Of a stretch of DNA of 64,000 nucleotides, positions 46,471-61,469 are shown piece after piece. The notes beneath the pieces are model-generated. The model saw only the letters and a program-made list of their open reading frames with translations, had not been told where the DNA came from and searched no databases. The stretch is from Rhizophagus irregularis. Its lineage: Eukaryota; Glomeromycota; Glomeromycetes; Glomerales; Glomeraceae. The stretch covers positions 3,022,001-3,086,000 of the forward strand of contig NC_089451.1 of assembly GCF_026210795.1 (NCBI RefSeq). The letters run 5' to 3'. Position 1 is the stretch's first letter, and each line of letters opens with the position of its first letter. Made by a program: the position numbers and the translations under genes.

Positions 46471-47160
46471 CGTATCTATAAAATTGAAAATAAATATGGC
46501 AATATAAGAAATATTAATGTTCTTTTATTTTTCATCATGTTTATTTGTTAAATTATTTCTATCAATTTATTAGTACATTTTTCCTTCTTTTTATTAATGT
46601 TCATTGTCCGGTTTCTCTTTTGTATTATTGTCTTAGTTCATATTAAATAATAAAGTATAAATTTAATCAATATAATTTAAATAAATAATGTTTAAACCAT
46701 TATAAATGTGTTTAACAGAAATTTTAGAAAATATGTAATTGAAAGTTAAAAAAAAATGTATAATGAAAAATTAAGAAAAAATTTAATGAAAAATTAAAAA
46801 AATTGACCGATCAAGATTGAATTTAAAGAAGGATGATTAGGAATAAATTTATTAATCATATAAATATTTAATTCATTTGACTGTTAATAAATGTTTAATA
46901 ATTTAATCCGACATCAAAAATTATATGTTTGGGTGAAATTTTTGAGGTGATTCTGGAGACATCCACCTATACAATTAAGTAGTATTTATATTTTCCAGTA
47001 AATTCCAGTACAACTTTATTCATCTTTTAATTTCTTTTCTCAATGCAACAAAATACTTCCAAAAGTAAATAATAAACATAGCTTTAATTTAAGAGTTCAA
47101 TACATAAATAACAATCCTTAATTTTACAATTTTAATGATACAACAAACCATTTCCTTCTT
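46471..47160. other. AT-rich intergenic spacer
   Basis: I see no gene or repeat structure of note here. Confidence 0.5.
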
Positions 47161-47164
47161 TTTG

Positions 47165-47790
47165 AAGCTTCATGTAAATGGTAAAACTTTGAAATTGCAA
47201 GTAGGAAAGGTAAGAGTTCCTTGTTTTTTGTTATTTTCGTGTCTTTTTTTTTATATGAGAACATTATTATCACATTCTTTTTTTTAGGAACTGGACTTTA
47301 GTATGAACTTTTAAATTACAAGAAGGTGTGTTTCTCAGTATTTTTTATTATTTTTGCATCTTTTTTGTTTGAAAATATTATTAATGCTCTTTCTCTCTTT
47401 TTTTAAAAAACACCTTGAACTTTGGTATGGACTTTGAAATCAAAGAAGGTGAGTTTCTCAGTATTTTTTATCATTTTTGCATCTTTTTTTATTGTTTGTT
47501 CTCTCTTCTTTTTCTTTCTTTTTTTTTAGAAACACCTTAGACTTTGGCATAGACTTTGGAATCACAAATAGAATGGTGAGTTTCTTGATTTTATATTATT
47601 TTAGTTATCTGAGAGTACTATTAGTACTCTTTTTCTTTTCTTTCAGGAATACCAGGATCTCAGTATGGTCTTTAAAATCACAGGAAGGTGAGTTTTTTAA
47701 GGGTTTTTTTTTTATTTGAGAACATTATTAACATTCTCTTTTCATTTTTTTTAGAAACGCTTTATCCTTTGAACAAACGATAAAACAGAC
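47165..47790 (+). pseudogene. Tandem array of five to six decayed exon-intron units
   Basis: Units of about 112-127 bp repeat. Each has a T-rich tract ending in TTTAG, a 38-46 nt exon-like block reading roughly AACACCTTGAACTTTGG then GACTTTGAAATCACA, and a donor GTGAGTTT. Donors lie at 47210, 47326, 47449, 47576 and 47688. One frame gives N-T-L-D/N-F-G-M/I-D-F-E/G-I in units 3 and 4. Unit 3 has lost its acceptor AG, and unit 2 has a TGA in that frame. It looks like duplicated exons of a former gene. Confidence 0.6.
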
Positions 47791-47799
47791 TTTAATGAT

Positions 47800-49239
47800 A
47801 TTCATTTACCTAGTAATAATATATTTATTATATTTGCATTATTAAATTTATATTATTGAAATATTATATTTGTATTTTACAATAAAATTAATAAAATTTA
47901 AAGATACAATGTTTCAAATTTTCAACATTATTTGCAGAGGCATAAATGTAATATATATTTTTTGAAGTGTTGCAGCTACATTTTCATAATAATATATTTA
48001 CATTATTAAAATGCTTAGGTTTTTAGTTATTTTTCCATAAATGTATCAATATTCACGGAGTTTTTACAGAAATAAATTTTTATATGGAAACGCATTATGA
48101 GCCAGTCAAGATTTATTCCGAAATAAAAAGTTATAACATTTAACAGGCAAGGATGTCAGAACTACTTTATGCTGTTTGTCCGCTTTACCTAAAATATCTG
48201 GTTCACATGAAAAACTTAACGTAATGAATCAGAATTGTAAGAAAAATTAGTGTTAAAAAACTATCAATCATATATTTTACTATAACAATCCATCAAATTT
48301 AAAGTATGCGAACTCAAGATTGGTGGTTTGATATAAATTACATAAATTTGAACATATATAGTTACGTAATTAAAATTTAATATGGTAAAAATGTAAGTAT
48401 TAAAAGATGATTTATTATTAAAATGAAGTTATTATTATCGTAATTAAGATTTCCCAAAAAAAAAAAATGTTTAACAATATATTTATTTAATTTGCAAAAT
48501 TTATCTATAAAGTAAATAAATAATAAATTGTAACATAAAAAATAATATAGAATAATAATGATATTTAAACATAATTATAATAAATAATAACTAAATTATC
48601 TTTGTGATTCCCCCGGAACAAGGGGCTCATTAAATAAATCATAAGTTATTGATAAGGTCTTTTAATTCAAGTAAATTTTCTGTTTCTTTTTCTTGAAAAA
48701 TATTTGCCCTCAAAAGCTTCTGGAACGTTCTTTGTGTTAAATGGTAATAAAATATTCGATTCAGGAAAAAAAATTTGTTGTTTACAACCATTAGTAAATC
48801 GAATATACTATTCGCTATAAATAGTACTTGGAATTTCCATGTGTTTTGAGACTATAAATTCCGTGAATATGATATATTTATGGAAATAATATGGAATAAA
48901 CACGGAATAAATTTTTTATAGGGTTTGTGTAAAATGACCATTTACAGCTGCTTTTGACGCCGTGGATGCATTCTGTTTTATGATTTTCTTCTTTTATTTC
49001 CGGATAAATCTTTGTTTGATCATGTGCGGTTACGTGTAATTGATCATCTGCAAGCTTAAAATGTTACTTTGTGCATTTTGTTAAATGATTTTCTTCTTTT
49101 ATTTCCAAATAAATCTTGATTGCTTATGTACCGTGATAATGCATTTACGTTAATATTATTTATATTTTATGCTGGTATTTTTTTTTACACATAAAATACT
49201 GCACAGATAATTCAATATCTTTGATTTTTTCAAATTTAC
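47800..49239. other. Intergenic region upstream of the BTB-TLDc gene
   Basis: No gene is visible. A short duplicated segment near 48.97-49.12 kb contains ATGATTTTCTTCTTTTATTTCC twice in slightly diverged form. Confidence 0.5.
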
Positions 49240-54154: not shown

Positions 54155-57100
54155 TTATATATCACAGTGCATACCTGATGATCCCGAATCTTTAATTATA
54201 CAATCATTCAAATCTTCACTCATTTCATTTGCTTTTATACTAGCTTGTGAACCTTCACTTTCAAGAATTTCATTTGATTTTTTACCAGTAAAATTAAGTG
54301 AGCGACTTGTATAACATGCTTTAGGATGAGATTTAGTAGCAAGATTGTTATGTCCAGTTGGTGCATTTATAAATTCCATAATGTTGCTTTTTAATTCTTC
54401 ACTGACTTCACGAGAACGGAAAATCCATTTTTCAATAATTTTTAATACTTCTTTAGAAGTTGGTCTTTTTAATGGATCTTCATCCCAACACTTTTCCATC
54501 AAATCTACATAACATTGTGGAGTATTTTCAATAATTTCAGGACGTTCACCTTTACAAATACTTAAACTAAGTTGAATATCATGTGCTCTATTATTAAATG
54601 GTGGTACTCCAGATGTAAATTCCCACATAATCATAGAAAAACTATAAATATCACTTGCTGGTGTATAAGGTTTGCCTCTTAAAATTTCAGGTGCCATAAA
54701 TGGCATAACGCCAAAAATACCATCTTCATCTTTTAAAAATGATTTTACAGGTTGGCATAATCCTAAATCACTAATAAACAAACTATCCTTATTCTTATCA
54801 TTATGATTTAAAATATTGCCATCATGAAAATCACAATGAATAAGATTTTTTTCATGTATCTTACTAAGTCCAGAAATAATTTCGTACAACATATATAATT
54901 TTTGATTCCAATTATTTTCAACTATCCTTGTTAAATTTCCTCTTAAATTACCTTTATTTGCATAATCCATTACTACCATATATTTTGAAGTATTTGGATC
55001 TTCTGTAAATCCATAAAAATATATGATATTATTCGAATTTAAAACACTTGTATGATATTCCCACTATAAATAATAATAATAATTCATTAATATAAATGAA
55101 TATTAATTTAAATTAAAATAAAAAATAATATACTAATAAACTATCATACTTCTTTTAAAAATTCATTCAAATTTTCATTTAAAGGCTTATGGAACTTAAG
55201 AATTACTACTTCATCTTTATTATTCTTTAACCAAGTAGCTTTATATATAGTACTATATCCTCCTTCATCAAGATATTCAACGTTTTTAAATTTGCTATAA
55301 GGAATCCATTTTAATCCATTTTTAAGAATAAAATCATCTATAATTGCATTTTTACTTTTTCCAAATCTATAAATTTAAATAGTTAAAATTATATTATAGC
55401 TTGTGTTATAATTACACTAAAATAAATTATTACTTACTCTAAAATTTAAATAAGAATTTAATATAATATAAATCTTAGTTTTAGGATAAATATACATAAT
55501 AACCTATAATTTACAACTTACCAACTAAAGTAACAGATATTTTTTTAAAAGAAAAAATTCAGTTAACAAATAAATATCATATAAAATATATAACAATAGA
55601 AATATAAATATCTTACAAGCTATATCATAAATAATTATTCAGATAAAGAAATTAGTTTAAATTACATGCCAATATTATATAAATAAGTAATAATAGAATT
55701 AAATACTAAATAACTTATAACTTACGTTCTATTAAATAAAGAAATTAGTTAGTCTAAATTATATGTAAATATTATATAAATAAGTAATAATAGAATTAAA
55801 TAAATAACTTACTCCCTATATTATTTAAATAAAGAAATTAGTTAGATTAAATTGCATGTAAATACTATTATAAATAAACAATAATAGAATTAAATAAATA
55901 ACTTACACCCTATATTATTCAATAATTTTTTAAAAAAAGAAATTAGTCGGATTAAATTATATATAAATATTATATAAATAAACAATAATAGAATATAACT
56001 TATGACTTACCAACTAAAATAAATTGCAAAATAATTTTTAAATAAAGAAATTAATTAGGTAAAATTATATATAAAAATTATACATTAATAGAATTAAACA
56101 AATAACTTACACCCTATATTATTTAATAATTTTTTAAATAAAAAAATTAGTTAGATTAAATTGTATGTAAATACTATTATAAATAAATAATAATAGAATT
56201 AAATAAATAACTTACACCCTATATTATTTAATAATTTTTTAAATAAAGAAAATAGTTAGATTAAATTATATAAATATTATATAAATAAGTAATAATAGAA
56301 TTAGATAAATAACTTATAACTTACCAACTAAAATAATAAAAATAATTTTTTATATAAAGAAATTAGTTAGTTTAAATTATATTTAAACATTATATAAATA
56401 AGTAATAATAAAATTAAATATATAACTTATGACTTACCAACTAAAATTAATTACAAAATATTTTTTTAAATAAAGAAATTAATTTATAAATATAATAAAA
56501 ATAAGTAATAATAAAATTAAATAAATAATTAGACTAAATTACATGTATATTATATAAATAATAATAATAAAATTAAATAAATAACTTATAACTTACCAAC
56601 TAAAATAAATTGCAAAATAATTTTTTGAATAAAAAAATTAGTTAGTTAAATTATATATAAATATTATATAGTAATAGAATTAAACAAAATAACTTACACC
56701 CTATATAGATTATTTAATAATTTTTTAAATAAAGAAATTAGTTAGATTAAATTGTATGTAAATACTATTATAAATAAATTATAATAGAATTAAATAAATA
56801 ACTTACACCCTATATTATTTAATAATTTTTTAAATAAAGAAATTAGTTAGATTAAATTATATATAAATATTATATAAATGAGTAATAATAGAATTAAATA
56901 AATAACTTGTGACTTACCAACTAAAATAAATTACAAAAATTAGTTAGTTTAAATTTTATATAAATATAATATAAATAAGTAATTATAAAATTAAACAAAT
57001 AATTAGATTAAATTACATATATTATATAAATAATTATAATAGAATTAAATAAATAACTTATGACTTACCAACTAAAATAAATTGCAAAATAGTAATTTTT

Positions 57101-60100
57101 TAAATAAAGAAATTAGTTAAAATTATATATAAATATTATATAGTAATAGAATTAAACAAATAACTTACACCCTATATTATTTAATAATTTTTTAAATAAA
57201 GAAATTAGTTAGTTTAAATTATATATAAATATAATATAAATAACATCAAGTAACAAATAACTTACTTCCTATATTATTCAATAATTTTTAAATAAAGAAA
57301 TTAAGATTAAATTTATATGTATATTATATAAATAAGTAATAATATTAGAATTAAATAATTAAATTATGACTTACCAACTAAAATAAATTACAAAATAATT
57401 TTTTAAAATAAAGAATTAGTTAGTTAAAATTATATGTGAATAATATATAGTAAATAAGTAATAATAGAATTAAATCAATAACTTACACCCTATATTATTT
57501 AAATAGAGAAATTAGTTAGATTAAATTATATATAAATGTCATATAAACAAGCAATAATAAAATTAAATAAATAACTTACATCCTATATTATTTAATAATT
57601 TTTAAATAAAGAAATCAGTTAGTTCAAATTATATATAAATATTATATAAATAAGTAATAATAGAATTAAATAAATAACTTATAACTTACCAACTAAAATA
57701 AATTGAATAATTTTTAAATGAAGAAATTAGTTAGTTTAAATTATATGTAAATATATATAAATAAGTAATAATAGAATTACTTATGACTACTTACCAACTA
57801 AAATAAATTACAAAATAATTTTTATATAAAGAAATTAGTTAGTTTAGATTTTATGTAAATATCATAGTAAATAAGTAATAATAGAAGTAAAATAAATAAC
57901 TTACACCCTATATTATTATTTAATAATTTTTTAAATAAAGAAATTAGTTAGTTTAAATTACTATATGTAAATATTATAGGGCATTGCTAAATCTCATCGC
58001 AGGTGATTTTCACCATACCAGTATTAGCAAATATTAATGGGCGGAGTTACATGACAATTTTAATTCTGCCCAAAATCTACTCTAAATCTGGTATAGTGGC
58101 AATCATCAGGAGTGATATTTAGCAATACTCAATATTATATAAATAAAGTAATAATAGAATTAAATAATTAAATAAATAACTTATAACTTACGATCTATTA
58201 AATAAAGAAATTTGTCAGTTTAAATTAAATAAGTAATAATAGAATTAAATAAATAACTTACACCCTATATTATTTAATAATTTTTTAAATAAAGAGTTTA
58301 AATTATATGTAAATTTTGCATAAATAAAGTAATAATAGAATTAAGTAAATAACTTATAACTTACAATCTATTAAATAAAGAATTAGTTAGTTTAAATTAT
58401 ATGTAATTATAATAAATAAGTAAATAAATAAAATTAAATAAATAATTACTCCCTATATTATTTAATAATTTTTTAATTAAAGAAATTAGTTAGTTAAATT
58501 ATTATAAATGAGTAATAATAGAACTAAATAAGTAACTTACACCCTATATTATTTAAAAATTTTTTAAATAAAGACATTAGTTAGTTTAAAGTATAAAATT
58601 ATATGTAATTATATATAAATAAATAATAATAGAATTAAATAAATAACTTACACCCTGTATTATATAATAATTTTTAAAATAAAAAAATTAGTTAGTTTAT
58701 ATAAATAAACAATAATAGAATTAAATAAATAACTTGTAACTTACGATCTATTTTATCAAGAAATTAGTTAGTTTAAATTATACAGTATATAAGTATTTAT
58801 ATATAAATAAGTAATATTAGAATTAAATAAATAACTTATGACTTACCAACTAAAATAATTTACAAAATAATTTTTTAAATAAAGAAATTGGTTTAAATAT
58901 TATATAGATATTATATAAGTAAGTAATAACAGAATTAAATAACTTACTTCCTATTATTTATTAGTTAGTTTAAATTATATATAGATATCATATGAATAAG
59001 TAATAATAGAATTAAAATGTACTTATGACTTACCATCTAAAATAATTTTTAAATAAAGAAATTGATTAGTTTAAATTATATGTAATATTATATAAATAGT
59101 AATAATAGAATTAAATAAATAACTTATAACTTACGATCTATTACATGAAGAAATTAGTTATTAGTTTAATTATATATAAGTATTATATAAATAAGTAATA
59201 ATAGAATTAAATAAATAACTTATGACTTACCAACTAAAATAATTTACAAAATAATTTTTTAAATAAAGAAATTGGTTAGTTTAAATTATATATAGATATT
59301 ACATAAATAAGTATTAATAGAATTAAATAAATAACTTATAACTTACGACCTATTAAATAAAGAAATTAGTTAGTTTAAATTATACTTAAATATTATATAA
59401 ATAAGTAATAATAGAATTAAACAAATAACTTACATCCTATTTTATTTGATGATTTTTTAAATAAAGAAATTAGTTAGTTTAAATTATATGGAAATATTAT
59501 ATCAATAAGTAATAATAGGATTAAATAACTTATAACTTACGATCTATTAAATAAAGAAATTAGTTAGTTTAAATTATATGTAAGTACTATTATAACAATA
59601 AGTAATAATAAACAACTTACTCTCTATATTATTCAATAATTTTTTAAATAAAGAAATTAGTTAGTTTAAATTATATGCAAAAATTAGTTAGTTTAAATTA
59701 TATGTAAACATTATATAAATAAGTAATAATAGAATTAACTTACGATCTATTAAATAAAGAAATTAGTTAGTTTAAATTATATGTAAATATTATATAAATA
59801 AGTAATAATAAAATTAAATAAACAACTTACTTTCTATATTATTTAATAATTTTAAATTATATGTAAATATTATATAAATTAAATAAATAATTAATAAACA
59901 ACTTACTCTCTATATTATTTAATAATTTTTTAATAAAGAAATTAGTTAGTTTAAATTAAATATAAATATTATAAATAAGTAATAATAGAATTAAATAAAT
60001 AACTTACTCCCTATATTATTTAATAATTTTTTTAAATAAAGAAATTAGTTAGTTTAAATTATATGTAATTTATATAAATAAGTAATAATAGAATTAAATA

Positions 60101-61469
60101 AATAACTTACTCCCTATATTATTGAATAGGTTTTTTTAAATAAAGAAAATAGTTAATTTAATTTATATGTAAATATTATAACAATAAGTAATAATAGAAT
60201 TAAATAAATAACTTATGATTTACCAACTAAAGTAAAATAATTTTTTAAATAATTAGTTAATTTAAATTTTATAAATAATAGAAATATAAATGCCATATAA
60301 CTTACACCCTATAGTATTATTAATTATTAATTAGTTAGATATAAATATAATATGAAAGTATTTACTGTAAGTTATATATATTGCTTACAATCTAGTTATT
60401 AAATTTAGAATATAATTAGTTGAATCATATAAAATATTAAACAAATAAATATAATATATATATTATAACTTACCATCTGTAACATAATTAGTTATTAAAT
60501 CGTTATATATATATATATATAGGGTTTTGTTTTTTATCGCACCTGCGTTATGTCGCACCCCTATAATATGTTACATATAAAAGTCAAAAATGACATTCTA
60601 AATCCTTTTTGATATATTAAGAAACTTGTAGAATGGTCAAAAATATGTATAGTATAAGGTTTCTTATAGTACATAGTAAGTGCATAAGGTCTCACGCAAG
60701 GATTTTTTAAAAAATGGGAAATCTTAACGAAGTCATGTGATAAAAATGATCGACATAATTAATATATAAAAATTACCAAAAAAGGGAGATGCGACATATC
60801 GCAGGTGCGAAAAAAAACATATTCCATATATAGGGTATATTCCATATATATATATATATTATTGAAATAAAGAATTTAGTTATTGTAAAAAATAAAGCGA
60901 AAAATTAAAGATTTAAATAACTTGATAACTTACCAACTATAGTTTTATTATCATTAAATAAATTATTTAGTTATATGGAATAAAATAAAATCATTATTAT
61001 TCAATTACTATATTAACTTACGAGCTAAATATTTTATATAAAATAGTTAGTATTTTACTATTTTTCATATTATATAATTATAGATAGTATTTGAATTGTT
61101 TATAAATAAAAATTTAATACTTTTAGGTTCCTTGGTACCAATTCCTTCAAATTCCACAATACTACTTCTTTCAATTTCTCTAGTGCCACTTTCTTCAAAT
61201 CCTTCAATATTACTGGAAACTAGTTTTGTTATATTGCAAATTTGTTTTAAAAATTTTGAATAATTCTAATTTATATTATGTGTTTATGCTATATGCTTAC
61301 CTTTACCAATATATTGAGCCATTACTATATTAAAATTTTCTTTAATTGAAAAAGATAAATATCTTTTTTTTAAAAAAAAAACGTCTTTATTAGCATAAAT
61401 GTGGTAATAATATTTATTACATTGATCACAACCACTGCATAACACTGCATAATCACAACAATGTGTCAA
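54155..61469 (-). CDS. Tyrosine-kinase-like kinase with a micro-exon/intron array inside the gene
   Basis: The recognisable exons on the minus strand are: about 61469-61301 (Cys-rich CSGCDQC, ending MAQYIGK); 61219-61121 (acidic, EGFEESGTREIERSS, ending EPK); 55366-55150 (LDEGGYSTIYKATW glycine loop and VVILKF lysine); and 55063-54155 (LIHCDFHDGNIL catalytic loop with HCD instead of HRD, SDLGLCQP, FMAPEILRG, CWDEDPLKRPTS). The middle, 55.4-61.0 kb, is a tandem intron-like array described separately. Exon phases agree only if the array contributes 3n+1 nt. The frame at the 5' exon opens after a stop with TTG, so the true start is either the ATG at 61322 or a missed upstream exon. Confidence 0.65.
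57979..58130. mobile_element. 152-bp MULE-like MITE inside the intron array
   Basis: Inverted ends read GGGCATTGCTAAAT at the left and ATTTAGCAATACTC at the right. Arms extend imperfectly to about 43 bp, ending CATACCAG/CTGGTATA. A 9-bp direct repeat AATATTATA flanks it (57970-57978 and 58131-58139). G...C ends with a 9-bp duplication suggest a Mutator-like element. Base composition differs clearly from the array. Confidence 0.85.
60529..60818. mobile_element. 290-bp inverted-repeat element at the array's 5' end
   Basis: The ends carry about 29-bp inverted repeats built on GTTTTTTNTCGCACCTGCG followed by (T/A)TATGTCGCA. The target duplication is uncertain because the flanks are (TA)n. There is no coding frame. 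It lies within an intron-like unit of the array. Confidence 0.7.

Follow-up and report, generated by a model that had tools for sequence, protein, structure and literature searches.

Introduction

Among the described systems that come closest to the gene considered here are recursive splicing, whose ratchet points have zero nucleotides between AG and GT, and introner elements, which are marked by many similar introns. The MEG genes of Schistosoma mansoni contain 10-20 short exons per gene of 3-81 bp (6-81 bp in the running text), mostly 15 bp, with introns of up to 4-5 kb, and their products are secreted and alternatively spliced (PMC10526429); single-nucleotide exons have been described in Arabidopsis (PMC4674806) and in CYP621A of Fusarium, where RNA reads support the exon (PMC12940212); and fungal stwintrons comprise introns in direct contact (PMC8469720). 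Here we examine a stretch of 64,000 nucleotides from the glomeromycete Rhizophagus irregularis (assembly GCF_026210795.1, contig NC_089451.1, positions 3,022,001 to 3,086,000 of the forward strand; hereafter the window), in which a protein kinase gene on the minus strand contains a long array of tandem introns whose acceptors and donors are separated almost throughout by three nucleotides. An earlier note on the window, made from the sequence alone, had drawn attention to about fifty such introns and knew of no described case like them. Among the listed matches from searches of open-licence full texts we likewise found no account of arrays of this kind; exons that are short and divisible by three have precedents, but as far as we found not on this scale. 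The report of an R. irregularis assembly gives 2,533 kinases and improved exon-intron support (PMC10234402), and the passages of it that were consulted do not mention micro-exons. We estimate the probability that the array consists of genuine one-codon coding exons, read in phase 1, at about 0.92, and at least two dozen kinase genes in this genome seem to contain a stretch with nearly one three-letter exon per codon.

A tandem intron array in a kinase gene

On the minus strand of the window, positions 61026 to 55438 hold 50 units composed of AG, three nucleotides and a donor (61026-55526), followed by one unit in which a single nucleotide lies between acceptor and donor. The tandem AG-NNN-donor array is thus real. 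The exact hexamer GTAAGT stands 3 nt after an AG in 46 of 47 occurrences, and the spectrum of gaps from 0 to 20 nt contains, apart from 3 nt, only three matches at 1 nt, two of which are shadows of AGA triplets and one of which is the true last unit; the claim of a gap that is always 3 nt except at the end therefore holds. The donor GTAAGT, said in the earlier note to be repeated throughout, is found in 46 of the 50 units, the other four reading GTAAGC, GTAAAT, GTAATT and GTAAGA with the 3-nt gap kept. Unit-to-unit distances are 70-123 nt with four exceptions, two of 460 and 287 nt that reflect insertions and two of 151 and 159 nt, in each of which one triplet has perhaps been lost. Elsewhere in the window, with the array excluded, AGNNNGTAAGT has one match on the plus strand and two on the minus strand.

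The gene begins with a 22-nt exon (61301..61322, minus strand, as are all exons of this gene) that carries the ATG start, encodes MAQYIGK plus a G, leaves in phase 1 through the donor GTAAGC and joins in frame to the second exon. This exon (61121..61219) is 99 nt long, encodes VSSNIEGFEESGTREIERSSIVEFEGIGTKEPK, has the acceptor TAG and the donor GTATTA, and is in phase 1 at both ends. The array proper (55367..61120) then comprises 52 consecutive introns, mostly of 70-120 nt and two with insertions, separated by 50 three-nucleotide exons and one single-nucleotide exon. The first micro-exon is CTC (61022..61024), and the opening five, CTC TTG ATG ATT GGT, encode x-LDDW; the last 3-nt micro-exon in the unit listing is TTG (55522..55524). 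The single-nucleotide exon is an A at 55438, in the context TTTTAG-A-GTAAGT, and a Glu codon is completed from three exons (G, A, A). The first kinase exon (55150..55366; FGKSKNAIIDDFILKNGLKWIPY..GGYSTIYKA..) is a family-mate of an exon with at least 152 matches in the genome and, taken alone, gave no Pfam match in a profile search. The second (54155..55063) is open to a TAA, and it is this exon that encodes the protein kinase domain (PF07714, E 3.9e-33; PF00069, E 2.5e-32; 115.3 bits against a cut-off of 23.1); by eye, an additional donor near 54176 is possible.

The frame closes as had been proposed: exon 1, exon 2 and the fifty triplets keep phase 1, the single A shifts it to phase 2, and the kinase exon completes the codon from 55366, so that the joined gene has an open frame of 465 codons to the TAA. 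Skipping the whole array leads, as the earlier note had also stated, to a TAG after nine codons, and omission of the 1-nt exon alone likewise produces a stop, so this exon is needed for the frame.

Stop codons are avoided at consecutive junctions

To place the window array among others of its kind we assembled a set of 27 arrays, consisting of the window, seven from a first listing, 16 places found through the first triplet, and three with 6-nt gaps or a long frame. The first listing held eight arrays, the eighth of which, L002, belongs to a different, AIG1-type gene and stands outside the set. When the triplets of the window and the first seven arrays are joined, phase 1 contains 0 stops in 297 units and phase 2 contains 49. 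Phase 1, which had been set on the window beforehand, also gives 0 stops in the 539 units of the 16 places fetched later, where phase 2 gives 84. Across all 27 arrays, with 6-nt units allowed and the arrays extended to their kinase exons (1056 codons), there are 2 stops in phase 1, 159 in phase 2 and 6 in phase 0; shuffling within arrays gives a mean of 39.3 phase-1 stops and a minimum of 24 in 2000 shuffles.

We then counted stops at junctions of triplets n apart, with 6-nt units dropped, and compared these with 2000 shuffles. Neighbouring triplets form 3 stops in 984 junctions against 38.1 after shuffling, no shuffle being as low, and the third of these stops was probably made by dropping the 6-nt units. 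Triplets two apart form 37 stops in 958 junctions (37.0 expected) and triplets three apart 46 in 932 (36.5 expected); at distances of four, five, six and eight the counts are 46, 41, 40 and 35 against 35.2, 34.4, 33.6 and 31.6, and at ten 25 against 29.9. Counting each triplet pair once per array gives the same picture, with 3 stops against 32.6 for neighbours, 33 against 32.5 at two apart and 40 against 33.0 at three apart. In the window alone neighbours form 0 stops, and triplets two to five apart form 2, 2, 2 and 5. Because stops are avoided only at consecutive junctions, selection would appear to see the triplets joined in order, that is, as translated exons. This pattern argues for consecutive joining and translation of the triplets and runs contrary to excision of the whole array or to selected skipping. 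The comparison of lags also offers a general, RNA-free way of arguing that micro-exons are joined consecutively.

Recurrence of the arrays across the genome

The two-unit pattern was searched in the whole genome (146,748,485 bases, 32 contigs), with the pattern read backwards as the control. A 3-nt gap gave 2734 matches (control 58), a 4-nt gap 8 (control 14) and a 6-nt gap 15 (control 9). These genome-wide counts (2734 vs 8 vs 15) are free of any bias from array selection. Together with its surrounding sequence (TAGCTCGTAAGT), the first triplet has 203 matches in the genome against 2 in the control. Within the 27 arrays, the distance from an exact GTAAGT to the nearest upstream YAG is 3 nt in 840 of 881 donors, a share biased by the way in which the arrays were located, namely through the 3-nt pattern or through CTC as first triplet; it is 6 nt in 14 donors, five more lie at 0, 2, 10, 10 and 21 nt, and the remaining 22 lack a YAG in the 37 nt upstream. 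The 27 arrays together hold 1034 parsed units, 22 of 6 nt and the others of 3 nt, the largest array having 91 parsed units; the unit parser accepted only 3-nt and 6-nt exons, and the gap spectrum was counted separately without that restriction. In L027 (C21:735300-742300) and L028 (C24:900500-905500), 3-nt exons are mixed with several 6-nt exons, which could be triplets fused by precise intron loss or an older state.

Seven of the eight arrays in the first listing lie directly before a kinase exon of one family, in the same direction, and such an exon is found beside 24 of the 27 arrays; it was not seen beside L021, L023 and L026. The counts retain these short arrays of two, nine and fourteen units, as they do L027-L029, which begin inside the array. 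The search of the genome for the kinase exon returned at least 152 matches (150 of 3951 first-look candidates were scored), and from the 24 loci seen we extrapolate to a family of over a hundred. The motif of the 1-nt exon, TTTAGAGTAAGT, was found in the 600 nt preceding 46 of the 62 listed kinase exons on contigs 1-10 and downstream of 0 of 62. The 1-nt exon itself is present in 11 of 12 array tails examined, and in the twelfth, L004, the motif stands 510 nt before the kinase match. An acidic exon that resembles exon 2, with a length divisible by three, precedes arrays L012-L016 and L019. About twenty matches to TTTAGAGTAAGT also occur at C5:3581565-3828495 on both strands, many of them a few kb apart and away from the listed kinase exons, possibly marking another gene or repeat cluster.

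The introns and the encoded residues have features in common across the set. The 1007 parsed introns have a median length of 96 nt (quartiles 87 and 105), with the donor GTAAGT in 844 and the acceptors TAG in 936, CAG in 57 and AAG in 14. A CTAAC branch-point motif, which the earlier note had ascribed to the array, is not universal; CTAAC, CTGAC or CTAAT is present in 643 of the 944 introns shorter than 140 nt. The triplets are of 52 different kinds. The first five encode L-x-[DN]-W in 15 of the 27 arrays, with x being D, E, N, I, K or T and Leu being CTT or CTC, and the 3' end of the arrays frequently reads CTT TTG A.

We also searched viral contigs with the three-unit pattern, which yielded 26 stretches of 2-13 units each on the better strand. 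Seven of these were inspected more closely: spacing was irregular or too short in L045, L046, L053, L061 and L062, a stretch is repeated in L043, which is a contig of phage type, and L057 has nine units 54-81 nt apart, apparently in a coding repeat, with a single stop in 252 codons of one frame.

Arrays in genes other than the kinases

Similar arrays precede frames of other kinds. An array on the minus strand of C10 (L036, C10:2415500-2424000) has 52 parsed units before a Sel1-repeat frame, and one on C3 (L037, C3:1573500-1579500) has 31 units preceding a gene without a Pfam match and starts with a 13-nt ATG exon that leaves in phase 1. The counts of stops, made without shuffles, are 0 in phase 1 and 18 in phase 2 for the former and 0 and 3 for the latter, and the match of phase at both ends of these arrays was read by eye. 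The peptide encoded by L036 is periodic (YEYEREYIEYEREYIEP), and a 12-nt exon is also present there by eye. The introns of each of the two arrays have BLAST matches to 27 of 28 possible targets, comprising the kinase-type arrays and each other, at identities of about 71-78%, the best matches having 70.8% (E 1e-51) and 72.8% (E 1e-38) in AT-rich sequence with the low-complexity filter off. A single intron family thus appears to occur in at least three kinds of gene, namely the kinase, the Sel1 and the uncharacterised gene.

The AIG1-type array (L009, L002 and L010; C1:1723675-1731434) has 69 parsed units with the acceptor CAG, the donors GTAAGT and GTGAGT and a median distance of 113 nt. Its gap spectrum has 58 hits for 3 nt and a single hit for 5 nt, and exact GTAAGT lies at 3 nt in 37 of 38 cases. 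The ATG is split over micro-exons 1 and 2, and the array remains in frame across an exon of 26 nt as far as a frame that encodes a coiled coil and an AIG1 GTPase. Stops number 0 in phase 2, 6 in phase 1 and 3 in phase 0, counts that alone prove little since the phase was picked after the fact and the shuffled phase-2 mean is only 0.75. The introns of this array have no BLAST match to any of the 27 arrays at E 1e-5 and match only an array on C17, situated before another kinase, at 77.0% over 1152 nt. The C17 array (19 units) has 0 stops in phases 0 and 2 and 1 in phase 1. From these matches the AIG1-type and C17 arrays appear to form a separate intron family.

Duplication and divergence of units

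The units within an array are similar, form higher-order repeats, and have been duplicated both singly and in blocks. With the 45-nt flanks required to match at 95% or better, 15 of the 28 arrays yielded 75 pairs of nearest-neighbour units, in which the triplets differ by 22.7% per nt, compared with 1.8% for the 3 nt before the acceptor and 2.7% for the 3 nt after the donor in the same pairs. In the 22 arrays that have pairs at 90% or above, the triplets exceed the adjoining windows in 14 and fall below them in 2. These anchored controls supersede an initial comparison of 861 pairs (mismatch of 7.2% in introns and 39-50% in triplets), which was replaced because alignments rich in gaps make introns look more alike than they are. 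Twelve collinear duplicated blocks show a weaker and less even contrast, with flank and triplet mismatches of 0.2 and 13%, 1.7 and 6.7%, 6.8 and 0%, 7.0 and 27%, 7.8 and 13%, and 10.6 and 4.8%, among others. Triplets are thus more varied than introns, and we claim no more than this, leaving the cause aside: it may be homogenisation of introns by conversion with the codons held, the spread of introns as copies, or diversification of the codons. The best whole-array identity among the fetched arrays is about 77-83%, a range at which purifying and diversifying selection are not separable.

Two of the introns of the window array contain inverted repeats. The insertion at 60528..60819 has 30-nt terminal inverted repeats (93%) and is located between TTG and ATG in intron three of the array; a palindromic stretch at 57960..58149, with 68-nt arms (74%), lies in one array intron between ATC and GGT. 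Both resemble short non-autonomous transposons. Outside the array, on the plus strand at 47150-47800, an exon of about 40 nt plus an intron occurs in tandem copies with GTGAGT-type donors and T-rich tails, which by eye is a milder form of exon-intron tandem duplication.

Discussion

The reading of the arrays as one-codon coding exons draws on what is legible in the DNA: the units and their spacing, the closure of phase, the avoidance of stops at consecutive junctions, the conserved start, and recurrence in paralogs and other genes. Besides the selection bias in the share of 3-nt gaps mentioned above, several observations weigh against it. Two in-frame stops remain, in L020 and L027, and are possibly parser errors or signs of dead genes. 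The L-x-[DN]-W start is absent as parsed in 12 of the 27 arrays: L017 has it in an earlier parse and not in the later one, L001 is parsed without a triplet that has a GC donor, L003, L004, L018 and L028 have D-W or N-W only, L005, L006, L013 and L021 do not fit, and L027 and L029 start inside the array. Sixteen of the 62 listed kinase exons lack TTTAGAGTAAGT, and this motif alone is not very specific, with 196 matches in the genome against 67 in the control. An intronless copy of the encoded segment was not found among 24 matches to the spliced peptide (E up to 10), all of which end by query residue 39, the residue reached by the longest, corresponding to exon 2 and its edge. Finally, among donors without a G at position +5 (28 arrays), 31 of 51 follow an exon that ends in G, compared with 277 of 1052 of the other donors, which weakly suggests U1 pairing across the exon edge, and this contrast weakens without L007 to 15 of 34 against 276 of 1022 (p = 0.03).

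The alternative that survives best leaves the product unchanged and concerns its origin: mobile copies of an intron might have been inserted codon by codon into ordinary coding sequence. Judged by the difference between 22.7% in triplets and 1.8% and 2.7% in the adjoining intron positions, the introns seem to be younger than the codons that they separate, or to have undergone more homogenisation, and we rate this possibility more highly because one intron family appears to occur in unrelated genes (Sel1, unknown and kinase). Insertion, however, would not require an interval of 3 nt, whereas hardly any other interval is seen, and blocks have been duplicated together with most of their triplets, as duplication predicts; we therefore regard an origin by invasion as unlikely, though worth keeping in view. 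A smaller chance attaches to combinatorial use, in which each transcript would omit a different in-frame subset of micro-exons and so produce variants of the linker in the manner of Dscam. Any 3-nt exon can be skipped in frame, and the close likeness of the introns within an array probably makes mispairing likely. Against this, junctions that would arise if one, two or three triplets were skipped contain stops at or above the random rate, and skipped forms would therefore be unprotected by selection; moreover, the 1-nt exon is not skippable in frame. Combinatorial use is accordingly improbable. It is very improbable that the AG-NNN-GT sites are mere stepping stones in the removal of a long intron by recursive splicing: regularly spaced, adjoining acceptors and donors do resemble ratchet points, and a stepwise route is likely in any case, but a gap of 0 nt is almost never seen and the triplets follow the reading frame as though they were retained in the product. 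Least credible of all is a satellite, that is, a non-coding repeat with copied splice-like motifs in one large intron of which 5.7 kb is removed in one step, since, although similar units in higher-order repeats and tolerated insertions are what satellites display, removal at once breaks the frame of the window gene and a satellite predicts neither frame effects nor the L-x-[DN]-W start, and neither the confinement of stop avoidance to consecutive triplets nor the 0 stops kept in the predicted phase by later arrays. In addition, the 3-nt gap stays constant while intron lengths vary and donors drift (GTATGT, GTAAAT, GTAAGC, GTGAGT), and it recurs in an array with introns that BLAST does not match to those of the kinase arrays. 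The earlier note had weighed an extreme run of micro-exons against a satellite, and the avoidance of stops, phase 1 in the later arrays and the conserved start all support the micro-exons.

If the triplets are indeed coding exons, about fifty short introns would be removed and the triplets joined to give about 51 linker residues that connect the acidic N-terminal exon with the kinase domain. Recognition would most likely take place across the intron and not the exon, because each intron is complete and ordinary in itself, and neighbouring introns would most likely be removed one after another, because two spliceosomes do not fit on an exon of 3 nt at the same time. The duplicated blocks suggest that an array may grow and shrink by tandem duplication, through unequal exchange, of an intron together with 3 nt, which would always keep the frame, and the linker may serve as a fast-evolving recognition or spacer segment. 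More tentatively, and with the odds somewhat against it, we propose a class of genes built codon by codon, in which frame-safe, fast-turnover cassettes of an intron plus a codon remodel linkers, in a large kinase family as well as in other proteins, through the gain, loss or exchange of single codons, the introns being homogenised or the codons diversifying under selection or through a targeted process.

Should transcripts bear this out, we would know of no more extreme fragmentation of exons, with consecutive one-codon exons by the dozen in many genes of a major plant symbiont. Exon definition, the minimum size of an exon, the order of splicing and the accuracy of the spliceosome would become testable in a natural system, and a route would be provided by which introns multiply without damage to the frame. 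It would also suggest that gene models of the expanded kinase family miss part of the protein.

Comparison with known systems

Like introner elements, the arrays contain many similar introns, one family of which may be present in unrelated genes; unlike introners, these introns stand in tandem within a gene at a fixed spacing of 3 nt. The likeness to recursive splicing lies in an acceptor that is directly followed by a donor and in the probable stepwise removal, but three coding nucleotides would be retained here at each step where ratchet points retain none, and with 0 nt in 1 of 881 donors and 3 nt in 840 we do not file the arrays under recursive splicing. Nor do we file them with stwintrons, which share with them the direct contact of fungal introns (PMC8469720): each unit here has its own full donor and acceptor, and none of the splice sites is split by a further intron. 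The single-nucleotide exon, as in Arabidopsis (PMC4674806) and Fusarium (PMC12940212), would restore the frame between introns and is common to related genes; unlike those isolated exons, the one predicted here completes, in many paralogs, an array in which 3-nt exons number in the dozens. With the MEG genes (PMC10526429) the arrays share many consecutive and very short exons, mostly in multiples of three, that are hard for automatic annotation. They differ from the MEG genes in that nearly all exons are of 3 nt, with up to 91 per array and introns of about 96 nt in a fungal genome, and in that, whereas MEG products are secreted, the arrays precede kinase and other domains, the predicted product of the window gene being a kinase.

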